DNA of 39,793 bases, taken from positions 1 to 39,793 of the forward strand of contig JANZZC010000101.1 in assembly GCA_026419575.1 (NCBI GenBank), in the 5' to 3' direction. Positions 14,873-18,204 of this stretch are shown here, piece after piece (the stretch's first letter is position 1; the number at the start of each line of letters is the position of its first letter). A program made the position numbers and the translations under genes. The notes beneath the pieces were generated by a model that was given only the letters and a program-made list of their open reading frames with translations, was not told where the DNA came from and ran no database searches. The DNA comes from Thermomicrobium sp. Its GTDB lineage: Bacteria > Chloroflexota > Chloroflexia > Thermomicrobiales > Thermomicrobiaceae.

Positions 14873-16093
14873 TCAGCGGGTCACGGTGAGGCCGAGGAGA
14901 CCGCCCATTTCGCGGAGCTGCTCGCGCGCTCGCTCGATGTCGCGTCCTTCGCGAGCGGCCGTGAGGAGCCGTTCGCCCGCCTCGGCGAGCAGTTCGATCG
15001 CGCGCGGTGTGTCGAGGTCGTCGGCGAGCGCGGCTGCGAGTTCGTCGCGGAGCGGTGCGAGATCGAGCGGTGTGCCCCGCCCGCCCGGTGCGTCGACCGC
15101 GGCGCGCAAGCGCCGGACGAGCGGCTCGAACCGGGCCGGGCCGTCGTCCTCGTACTCGAACGGTGTGCGGTAGTGGTGACTGAGAAGATAGAGACGAATG
15201 GCATCGCCGGTGTGGCGACGCAGCGTCTCGCGGACGAGCACGAGATTCCCGAGCGATTTCGACATCTTCGTTCCCTGGTACTCGACCATCGCCACGTGCA
15301 CCCAGAACCGGGAAAAGGGGGAGAGACCGGTGTAGCCTTCCGACTGGGCGATCTCGCTCTCGTGATGCGGGTAGATGAGGTCGTAGCCGCCCCCGTGCAC
15401 GTCGATCTGGGGGCCGAGATACTTCATGGCCATCGCGCTGCACTCGATGTGCCAGCCTGGACGTCCCGGGCCCCAGGGGCTGTCCCAGGTCGGCTCGCCG
15501 GGCTGAGCGGCCTGCCAGAGAACGAAATCGAGCGGGTCGTCCTTCCGCGGATCCTGCGGATCGGCGCCCCGCTCGGCCGAGAGGCGGATCATCTCCTCGC
15601 GACTACAGCGACAGAGCTGGCCGTAGTCGGGATCGCTCGCTACCCGGAAGTAGACGTTGCCGTCCCGCACGTAGGCAGCACCCCGATCGATGAGTCCCTG
15701 GATGATCTCGATCATCAGCGGGATCTCCTCGGTCGCGCGGGGGAAAACCGAGGGGAAGAGCACGTTGAGCGCGTTGAGATCCTCCTGGAATTGACGGATG
15801 TAGCGGTCGCCGAGGCGGTCCCACCGCTCGCCGACCTCGCGGGCTTTGCGCAGGATGTCGTCGTCGATGTCGGTGATGTTCTGCACGTACTTGACGCGCC
15901 AGCCGTGGTACTGGCAGATCCGGTTGAACACGTCGAAGACGAGATACGTCATCGCGTGTCCCATGTGAGTCGTGTCGTACGGGGTCACGCCGCAGACGTA
16001 CAAGCGGACGGTACGCCCGTCGGCCGGGGCGAACGGCTCGATCTTCCCGGTGAGCGAATTGAAGAGTCGCACGGTCTCGCTCGCTCCCTCCAT
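14873..16093 (-). CDS. CysRS/MshC-like class I cysteine ligase without anticodon-binding domain
   Basis: This 406-residue class I synthetase-fold enzyme activates cysteine. The HIGH motif is HMGH (43-46) and KMSKS is at 276-280. Zinc ligands Cys34, Cys218, His243 and Glu247 match those of cysteinyl-tRNA synthetase. CysRS is usually about 460 residues, with a C-terminal domain reading tRNA-Cys. This protein stops just after the helical bundle (ending LLGLTVTR). Its length and its [14 protein letters not shown] motif resemble MshC, the mycothiol cysteine ligase (CGITPYDATHLGHA). HHESE retains a glutamate that MshC proteins as I recall them lack. It could be a minimal CysRS, an MshC-like ligase, or a truncated gene. 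The ATG at 16093 is preceded by GAGGA. It is divergent from the peroxiredoxin gene, 72 bases away. Confidence 0.8.
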
Positions 16094-16165
16094 CACTCGC
16101 GTTCCTCGCTTCGGGTATCGTACCATCGGTACGTCAGGGAGCGTGCGGGTCCGAAAGGAGGCGCG

Positions 16166-16654
16166 ATGGCGGGACGAGTCGGCGAACGAGCACCGGAGTT
16201 CCGGTTGCCGAGTACGCTCGGGCAACCGCTCGCGCTGAGCGAAATCCTGCGCGAGCGGATCGCGGTTCTGGCGTTCTTCCACTTCGCTTTTACCGGTGGT
16301 TGAGCGAACGAGCTGTCCCAGTTGTGGGGCAGAATCGAGGAGATCCGAGCGCTCGGTGCCGAGGTCTACGCGATCAGTTGCGACAGTCACTTCGCGCAGG
16401 CCGCCTGGGCACGCGAGCTCGGTGTCGACTTCCCGTTCCTGAGCGACTGGAGCCGCGAGGTCATCGCGGCCTACGACGTGAAACTGGACGAACTGATCGG
16501 CTATCGCGACGTGCCGGCTCGGGCGATCGTCATCGTCGATCGGGACGGGACGATCGTCCATCGTGACCGAGCACCGTTGCGGGCGCTGCCCGATGTCGAC
16601 GCCGCCGTCGCCGCTCTACTCTCGGTCGCGGCGCGCAACGGAGCCGACGGCTGA
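16166..16654 (+). CDS. AhpE-like peroxiredoxin, probable selenoprotein (in-frame TGA at 16301-16303)
   Basis: Read through one TGA, this frame gives 162 residues of a complete peroxiredoxin: APEFRLPS near the N-terminus, FFHFAFTGG-TGA-ANEL, FPFLSDW, and VIVDRDGTIVHRD near the end. AhpE-type enzymes have the peroxidatic cysteine in AFTGxCxxEL, so the TGA (codon 46) sits exactly on it, and threonine 43 is conserved. The usual proline four residues before this threonine is histidine. Cys72 is the only other cysteine and is not at a standard resolving position, so a one-Cys/Sec mechanism is likely. The ATG at 16166 has AAAGGAGG. A SECIS-like hairpin follows the TGA. Alternatives are a nonsense mutation or base-call error. 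The 3' end overlaps the opposing NDH-2 gene by 39 bases. Confidence 0.8.
16313..16332 (+). promoter_or_regulatory. candidate bacterial SECIS hairpin
   Basis: CUGUCCCA (16313-16320) pairs with UGGGGCAG (16325-16332) in eight consecutive pairs, one of them G-U, around the loop GUUG. The loop begins 17 bases after the TGA at 16301-16303 and its first base is G. Both fit the usual description of bacterial SECIS elements, which lie inside the coding region just downstream of the UGA and recruit SelB. The hairpin also encodes conserved protein sequence, so pairing could be partly chance. Confidence 0.6.
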
Positions 16655-18025
16655 CGAAGCCGGCGACTCGGTCGGAACCGGCGCCTCGCGCAGGCGGCGG
16701 AGCGCTGCTTCGACCAGCCGGCGCATCGCCGGCGCCGGTTGCCCGACCTTCAGCTGCACCAGCTCGGGCGGGAAGAGGAGGTCGAGTGTCCACTCCATGG
16801 CGAGGCGCAGTCGCCGGTCCCAGCGCGGGACTTGGAGGAGCGCGTAGGTGCGCCAGAGCCACCAGGCCGGAAAGCCCGTCAGCGTGAAGCGCCCCAACCA
16901 CGCGATCGCCGCGTGGTCGCCGAGCGTGACCATCATGCCGCGGGTGCGGTAGCGCATCGGTTCGAGCGTTCCACCGCCGAGGCTCGCCAGGAGATTCCGC
17001 GCCAGGAGTTTGGCCTGGCGCACGGCGTGCTGCGCGGTCGGTGCGTACGGGCGTCCGGTCGCAGGGTCGGGCACCGCCGCGTTGTCACCGATCGCCCAGA
17101 TGTCGGCGAAGCCAGCGACGCGCAGGTACTCGTCGACGACGATCCGGCCGCGTCCATCGAGCGGCAGGCCGAACGAGCGCACGATCGGGTTCGGTTCCAC
17201 CCCGATCGCGCTCACGATCGTCCGCGATTCGAGCACCGTTCCGTCCTCGAGCGTGACCGCGGCTGGATCGACGCGAACGACCTTGCGACCGAGCGAGACC
17301 CCGATGCCGCGTTTCCGGAGTTCGTGCGCGGCTCGTTCGGCGGCGTCGTCGGGAAAACCAGTGAGGAGGCGCGGTAACGCCTCGACGAGCACGATGCGTT
17401 CGCTGCCGGGTCGGATGTTGCGGTAGAAGGGAAGCGCGTGCGTGAAGAGGCTGCGGATCTCGGCCGCGACCTCCACGCCGGTCGGACCGCCGCCGATGAC
17501 GACCACGGTGAGCAAGCGGCGCTGCTCCGCCGGGTCGTCCTCGATATCGGCCTGTTCGAGGAGATCGATCAGGTGGTTCCGCAACGCGAACGCGTTGCCG
17601 AGGCGCTGGACGTCGAACGCATAATCGTCCAGGCCGGGGATCCCGAAGGTCGCCGGTACGCCGCCAAGCGCGAGGACCAGGTGATCGTACGGGAGTTCGA
17701 GCGGTTCCTGGTGATGCTGGTAGAGTCCATGGCGGATCGTGACCGTCCGGCGGTCGAGATCGATTCCGGTCAACTCGCCGACGTACAACCGGGCATGCGG
17801 GACGACGTGGCGGATCGAGGTGAGGATCGTTTCGACACGCAGTGCCCCGGAAATGACCTCGGGCATGAGCGGGTAGAAGACGAAGGCGTTCTCCCGCGAG
17901 ACGATGGCGACCTCGACTCGGCCCGAGGCGGCGGCGTGCCGGAGCGCGTGCGCCGTCGTGACGCCGGCGAAACCGCCGCCTGCGATCACGATCCGTACCG
18001 GTTCGGTGCGCTGTACTCTCTCCAT
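16616..18025 (-). CDS. ndh: type II NADH dehydrogenase (NDH-2)
   Basis: This 469-residue FAD enzyme passes electrons from NADH to quinone without pumping protons. It has an FAD-binding GGGFAGVTTA motif (about 16-25), an NADH-binding GGGPTGVEVA motif near 195, and the family signature WAIGDNAAVPDP followed by PTAQHAVRQAKLLARNL. The C-terminal stretch GFPAWWLWRTYALLQVPRW is the amphipathic membrane-binding region characteristic of NDH-2. The ATG at 18025 is chosen by similarity, with GAGG 11 bases upstream. A TACAAT -10-like box lies at 18085-18090 in the divergent gap with the next gene. It ends inside the 3' end of the peroxiredoxin gene on the other strand. Confidence 0.9.
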   Translation of the reverse strand: MERVQRTEPVRIVIAGGGFAGVTTAHALRHAAASGRVEVAIVSRENAFVFYPLMPEVISGALRVETILTSIRHVVPHARLYVGELTGIDLDRRTVTIRHGLYQHHQEPLELPYDHLVLALGGVPATFGIPGLDDYAFDVQRLGNAFALRNHLIDLLEQADIEDDPAEQRRLLTVVVIGGGPTGVEVAAEIRSLFTHALPFYRNIRPGSERIVLVEALPRLLTGFPDDAAERAAHELRKRGIGVSLGRKVVRVDPAAVTLEDGTVLESRTIVSAIGVEPNPIVRSFGLPLDGRGRIVVDEYLRVAGFADIWAIGDNAAVPDPATGRPYAPTAQHAVRQAKLLARNLLASLGGGTLEPMRYRTRGMMVTLGDHAAIAWLGRFTLTGFPAWWLWRTYALLQVPRWDRRLRLAMEWTLDLLFPPELVQLKVGQPAPAMRRLVEAALRRLREAPVPTESPASSAVGSVARRDRE

Positions 18026-18204
18026 CGCCTGCTGACCTCGTCGTTCAGCCGGGCACGGCACCGCTGCCGTGACATGAACCCCACATTGTATCGCACGCGA
18101 CGGTCGCCGTGTGGGCGGTAGGTACCGGCATCGTGAACGAGCGGCGAGCGCGGTTCGGGGGAGCCGGCGACTGCGAGCGGTCGACGAGCGAAGGGAGCGA
18201 GACG

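Follow-up and report, generated by a model that had tools for sequence, protein, structure and literature searches.

The window analyzed here is one whole contig of 39,793 nucleotides from a draft assembly (174 contigs, 90.9% completeness) of a thermophilic Thermomicrobium sp. Within it, a single frame opens with an ATG at 16166 and closes with a TGA stop at 16652-16654, and the only stop codon in between is another TGA, at 16301-16303, which corresponds to residue 46 (Table 1). The original prediction had proposed that this frame encodes an AhpE-like peroxiredoxin in which selenocysteine (Sec) replaces the peroxidatic cysteine. As far as the frame is concerned the proposal was confirmed, since the TGA is the sole interruption and lies at the peroxidatic position. 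An ORF lister run under translation table 11 splits the frame into a 612-residue ORF that ends at 16303 and a 110-residue ORF that starts at 16322. This bears out the expectation that the gene would be broken up by automated calling, and standard gene prediction would be expected to divide genes of this type in the same way.

Table 1. Features at the Sec gene locus (window coordinates).
Feature	Position	Strand	Basis or remark
cysS-like cysteinyl-tRNA synthetase gene, head-to-head neighbour of the Sec gene	14873..16093	-	tRNA-synt_1e, 369.9 bits
Shine-Dalgarno-like AAAGGAGG upstream of the ATG	16154..16161	+	Read from the sequence
Predicted Sec-containing AhpC/TSA-family gene	16166..16654	+	162 codons including one for Sec, plus stop; AhpC-TSA match, kept in the family
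CAC, His39, at the signature Pro place of Pxxx(T/S)xxC	16280..16282	+	Alignments
Thr43 of TxxU	16292..16294	+	Read from the frame and alignment
UGA, predicted Sec46, peroxidatic position	16301..16303	+	TGA in 15/15 family genes
SECIS-type hairpin	16313..16332	+	8-bp stem, 16313-16320 with 16325-16332; GUUG loop, 16321-16324
Arg119, conserved arginine	16520..16522	+	Invariant in alignments A2 and A4; 15/15 family rows

The translated frame scores 102.8 bits (cut-off 26) against the Pfam AhpC-TSA domain, the match spanning residues 5-132. The portion past the TGA, searched alone, still scores 62.2 bits and enters the profile at position 43, which indicates that this portion completes the domain begun before the TGA and is no chance match. 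When NCBIfam was searched with the window protein, no model reached its cut-off, and the protein stands apart from the PrxU family (NF040737) at 44.2 bits versus a cut-off of 270. A/G-rich stretches upstream of the start are also found in 14 relatives of the gene. The cysS gene adjoins the Sec gene, in head-to-head orientation, in all 15 family loci that carry it. Within the flanks available, cysS was also found beside 3 of 45 other loci tested, and these three are copies of this family's genes (L075-L077). The head-to-head arrangement could allow a shared promoter region. On the other side, a convergent gene for a pyridine nucleotide-disulphide oxidoreductase (Pyr_redox_2, 173 bits) occupies positions 16616-18061.

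Conservation of the TGA and its predicted decoding as selenocysteine

The window protein was searched in 101 genomes including its own, 21 of which make up the family (G000-G020, with G000 being the source of the window). A close copy is present in 15 of the 21, and the catalytic codon is TGA in every one of the 15. Named relatives include HRbin27 (93% identity) and Thermomicrobium sp. CFH 73360 (86%), which point to Thermomicrobium (Chloroflexota) as the genus. A close copy was not found in the remaining six genomes; G003 (54% complete) gave no match and the five members of genus g5 (G010, G014, G017, G019, and G020) gave only distant ones. No close Cys-containing copy was found among the 21 family genomes. 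Loss of the downstream frame in relatives had been named as an outcome that would count against a selenoprotein; instead, the frame is kept in all 15 genes. In comparisons with four congeners (L026-L029), dN/dS is 0.03-0.09 before the TGA and 0.03-0.07 after it. More distant pairs gave 0.17-0.21 where the ratio was computable, with dS often above 1. Judged from these substitution rates, both sides of the TGA are under purifying selection. The gene has the hallmark of a bacterial selenoprotein, namely an in-frame UGA that aligns with a redox Cys and is conserved among orthologues. A nonsense mutation or a miscall in an ordinary Cys peroxiredoxin, conceivable in a draft of this kind, was rejected as highly improbable on the identical TGA in 15 genes from 15 genomes and the low dN/dS downstream of it among congeners, and the lack of a close Cys copy in the family genomes also argues against it.

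A stem formed by CUGUCCCA and UGGGGCAG begins 9 nt past the UGA and presents its loop 17 nt past it. The bacterial SECIS model, as given in a passage of PMC13188914, calls for a loop of 3-9 nt with a G among its first two nucleotides, a stem of 4-16 bp, a distance of 16-37 nt from the UGA, and a minimum free energy of -7.5 or lower. The window hairpin falls within these limits (-15.3 kcal/mol, 17 nt, 8 bp, and a GTTG loop). By our own coding of those published criteria, 55 of 91 TGA rows pass, compared with 14 of 66 among the Cys rows (Fisher p 9e-7); rows whose downstream sequence was a duplicate or too short had been removed. The 36 TGA rows that fail include four of the 15 family genes (L031, L034, L036, and L039); the other 11 pass, with the best hairpin elsewhere in three (L032, L033, and L158).

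Synonymous shuffling was applied to the fold of nt 7-33 after the TGA, a stretch chosen after the fold was seen, so that the test is partly post hoc; 1 of 2000 shuffles reached the window hairpin, and p was at most 0.0225 in 11 of the 15 family genes, the window included. The four genes of sister genus g3 were not significant (p 0.08-0.12), nor were six of seven more distant TGA rows, and none of eight Cys rows reached 0.05. In the 15-row alignment of the hairpin, 83.3% of the cells pair versus 75.0% in shuffles, cells changed on both sides number 10 versus 3.9, and the covariation score is 0.273 versus 0.135, with 0 of 500 shuffles reaching any of these values. Slid versions of the hairpin attain neither the both-side-change nor the covariation value. 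Two of five pair measures do not exceed the shuffles (335 and 493 of 500). Since related rows can exceed shuffles without any structure, these pair counts are taken as support for the hairpin and not as proof.

The genome that carries the window encodes most of the machinery for Sec insertion, which the original prediction had singled out as a check. The selB gene scores 368 bits (cut-off 242), selA, which runs off the end of contig C66, 348 bits (cut-off 268), and selD 358 bits (cut-off 125). Among 14 control genomes, the respective cut-offs were passed in only two, one, and two. The selD gene itself has an in-frame TGA that places Sec within SCAGUAGKL. The outcome for tRNA-Sec was mixed. The G000 draft holds only a 73-nt 3' piece (C18:17859-17931; L007, L072, and L073), which is 100% identical to the gene of a relative. 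The first 24 nt of the gene are replaced by a different sequence with local CCGTCTCC..GGAGACG repeats, found three times in G000 within two mismatches, always on contig C18. When the missing 5' piece was sought by pattern, seven two-mismatch matches were obtained, versus three for a control pattern. Intact tRNA-Sec genes were found by ARAGORN in five of six congeners (G001-G004 and G006), and in the sixth (G005, 62% complete) the match over the cut-off (L060) is a tRNA-Ser. We consider a draft-assembly fault or a local rearrangement to be a more likely cause of the incomplete gene in G000 than a split tRNA. Of the two genes whose absence would have spoken against the proposal, selB is present and tRNA-Sec is partly present in this assembly. 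It should be noted that Rfam tRNA-Sec matches were not accepted at face value. The search matched 18 places in the G000 genome, of which the only one over the cut-off (L001) is a tRNA-Ser by ARAGORN; it also gave matches in every one of the 14 control genomes, five of which had one that exceeded the cut-off. Although the cut-off was passed in seven of seven congeneric genomes, the match is a tRNA-Ser for G000 and G005.

Decoding of the TGA as another residue, either as Trp or by near-cognate readthrough, would fit a frame that stays open however the TGA is read and a genome whose own tRNA-Sec is incomplete. However, the same codon ends the gene at 16652, the internal TGA aligns with the catalytic Cys in numerous genomes, and selA, selB, and selD are accompanied by a SECIS-type hairpin downstream of the codon. 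On these grounds such decoding was rejected, with only a slight chance left to it. Taken together, the TGA in 15 of 15 genes, the purifying selection before and after it, the covarying hairpin, and the sel genes uphold the replacement of the peroxidatic Cys by Sec, and we conclude that positions 16166-16654 very probably hold a working selenoprotein gene. The best explanation as a whole, to which we assign a probability of about 0.93, is that the gene encodes a 162-residue selenoprotein with a peroxiredoxin (AhpC/TSA) fold in which UGA46 is read as Sec.

Fold, relatives, and proposed mechanism

An AlphaFold2 model of the Sec protein (pLDDT 90.8) matches solved peroxiredoxins with TM-scores by query length of up to 0.88. 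In addition to the AhpC/TSA domain and fold, the protein has the (T/S)xxU motif and the conserved Arg of peroxiredoxins; all 15 family rows retain both, the motif having Thr in 11 and Ser in 4. Among solved chains, PrxQ/Bcp of Aeropyrum pernix (2cx3 and 4gqf) ranks first both by sequence (80 bits) and by Foldseek E-value (36% identity). It differs in having Cys and Pro in the loop where the window protein has Sec and His. A resolving Cys is common among PrxQ enzymes. AhpE of Mycobacterium tuberculosis (Rv2238c; 1xxu and 4x0x) resembles the window protein in lacking a conserved resolving Cys and in fold (TM 0.84-0.86 by query length), but scores only about 42 bits by sequence. The AhpE loop is of the FAFTG-x-C type, as in the window protein, and has a Pro. 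A Knoellia row (L083), taken as AhpE-like by its motif, likewise has Pro where the window protein has His. Our trees, in which deep forks are poorly supported, do not join this row to the Sec clade. With an archaeal PrxQ first by sequence and fold and L083 outside the Sec clade, the label "AhpE-like" was not established.

A conserved second Cys was not found. Eight of the 15 family proteins have no other Cys, six from Thermomicrobium share one at +26, and one protein has one at +17. Likewise, no other Cys occurs in 48 of 82 raw Sec rows without the signature Pro, repeats included. Because no resolving Cys is conserved, we infer from the alignments that the protein probably works as a peroxidase of the 1-Sec type and depends on an external thiol for its reduction. 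Under our current hypothesis, SelB bound to the hairpin just 3' of the UGA would deliver Sec-tRNA, and translation would continue to 16654. Kept in place by Thr43 and Arg119, the selenol of Sec46 would attack hydrogen peroxide or an organic hydroperoxide to give a selenenic acid, which could then be reduced by a thioredoxin-like protein, a small thiol, or sulfide. In the loop, which differs from that of standard peroxiredoxins, His39 stands in place of the Pro that shields the active site from solvent, and the replacement may be tolerated because the selenol is already ionised and the oxidised form is easier to reduce.

Several known selenoproteins come close to the window protein. A bacterial Sec peroxiredoxin with a TxxU motif was described from Eubacterium acidaminophilum (Sohling et al. 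2001, cited in PMC13188914). The window protein shares its AhpC/TSA fold, the Sec at the peroxidatic position, the TxxU motif, and a SECIS-type hairpin past the UGA. However, the motif is given in PMC13188914, a review, as a highly conserved PxxxTxxU, whose Pro is His here. A second TGA gene in the genome (G000:C174:5562-5981, L129) encodes an AhpC/TSA-related protein of the Prx-like UxxC type and has relatives in G001, G002, and G006 and in a further eight genomes of the family. Its hairpin has the CAGTTG apex in common with that of the window gene (the loop being AGTT in L129 and GTTG in the window gene), but the protein has a UPxC pair (UPYC) in place of TxxU and belongs to a separate branch of the tree. 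AhpC of Blastococcus saxobsidens, as described in a passage of PMC5330540, also has Sec in an AhpC-family protein with a bacterial SECIS after the codon. There, Sec is read from UAG and the lineage is another; the parallel is drawn from the published description.

The signature proline in Chloroflexota

According to a passage of PMC8945050, all six peroxiredoxin subfamilies share the motif Pxxx(T/S)xxC, and in a paper on a Prx6 structure the conserved Pro is described as a barrier to solvent (PMC3337327). By the former definition, the window protein departs from the family, with His39 in place of the Pro; besides the AhpE-like label, this is the second point on which the original prediction needs correction. 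Pro occupies the equivalent place in the three solved proteins aligned.

The distribution of the Pro was followed in 400 Chloroflexota genomes, the one phylum sampled in depth. With a query profile built from Sec rows lacking the Pro, 199 genomes gave a match at E<=1e-25. An in-frame TGA is present in 39 of the best 40 matches listed, and is the catalytic codon in 37 of the 37 read; by this measure the Sec branch is widespread in the phylum. Among the matches listed, 30 loci and 60 hand-picked places (34 with TGA and 26 without) were read in addition to the earlier loci. Two places picked as having TGA (L193 and L215) proved to have TGC as the catalytic codon and were counted as Cys. Eighteen of 189 loci were left out of the counts (15 UxxC proteins, L097, L112, and L128), and L084 and L085, the latter a Cys row with Pro, lie outside the 189. 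In the resulting 171 raw (T/S/G)xxC/U rows, the Pro is missing in 82 of 105 Sec rows and in none of 66 Cys rows. As the raw rows hold repeats (L153-L161 and L075-L077), we prefer the counts after thinning at 85% identity, in which 47 of the 68 Sec forms but none of the 63 Cys forms are without the Pro. Thinning removed the window's own row, for which a close relative stands. In the Sec forms without Pro, its place is taken by Val, His, Leu, Tyr, Ala, Ile, Phe, or Glu. The Pro is kept in 21 of the 68 thinned Sec forms, and Sec therefore does not force its loss.

On the tree, this group requires seven changes of the Pro state, either losses or regains, at least five of them on well-supported branches. 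The state thus changed more than once. A smaller tree had been built from 101 loci less six (L075-L077 as repeats, L084, L112, and L128), and a further analysis of these loci also omitted 15 UxxC rows. An independent-pairs test of Sec versus Pro loss was not significant, with too few well-supported pairs to decide (two in that further analysis and four in the larger sample). We suggest from this pattern that, among relatives of the Sec gene, selenium lets the enzyme drop a residue that the sulfur versions keep. The broader proposition, that selenium has freed Chloroflexota peroxiredoxins from the family-defining loop Pro, with a state that changed repeatedly and is missing solely in Sec forms, is put forward tentatively, at somewhat less than even odds.

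The missing Pro also raises the prospect that the protein is an oxidoreductase or a selenium carrier with no peroxidase activity. Two Deinococcus BCPs without the motif, which also carry a 15-residue insertion there, may be inactive according to a passage of PMC8945050. We regard this prospect as unlikely. The (T/S)xxU motif and the Arg persist throughout the family rows, the Sec protein has no UxxC pair, the predicted fold matches that of peroxidases, and Sec forms without Pro are widespread in the Chloroflexota sample. A 1-Sec peroxidase remains our preferred reading.

A Sec peroxiredoxin in this genome is of an expected and known kind; a branch lacking the Pro and seen only with Sec goes beyond what we found described. 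Within the open-access PMC literature (subscription papers being outside the scope), no paper was found on the Thermomicrobium Sec gene or on Sec peroxiredoxins without the Pro. A 2006 survey counted Prx homologues by T/SxxU/C, as stated in a passage of PMC1794560, so that such genes may sit in its lists without the Pro being remarked upon. If the broader proposition is true, proline-less seleno-peroxiredoxins would form a large class whose active site is opened up, and small thiols or sulfide might then reduce these enzymes directly. The Pro pattern also poses the question of which residues are needed by a Cys enzyme but not by a Sec enzyme, which can be addressed by mutagenesis and kinetics. 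Separately, four Sec rows (L186, L188, L189, and L192) have Gly for the Thr/Ser of TxxU and are also without the Pro, a further departure from the motif.
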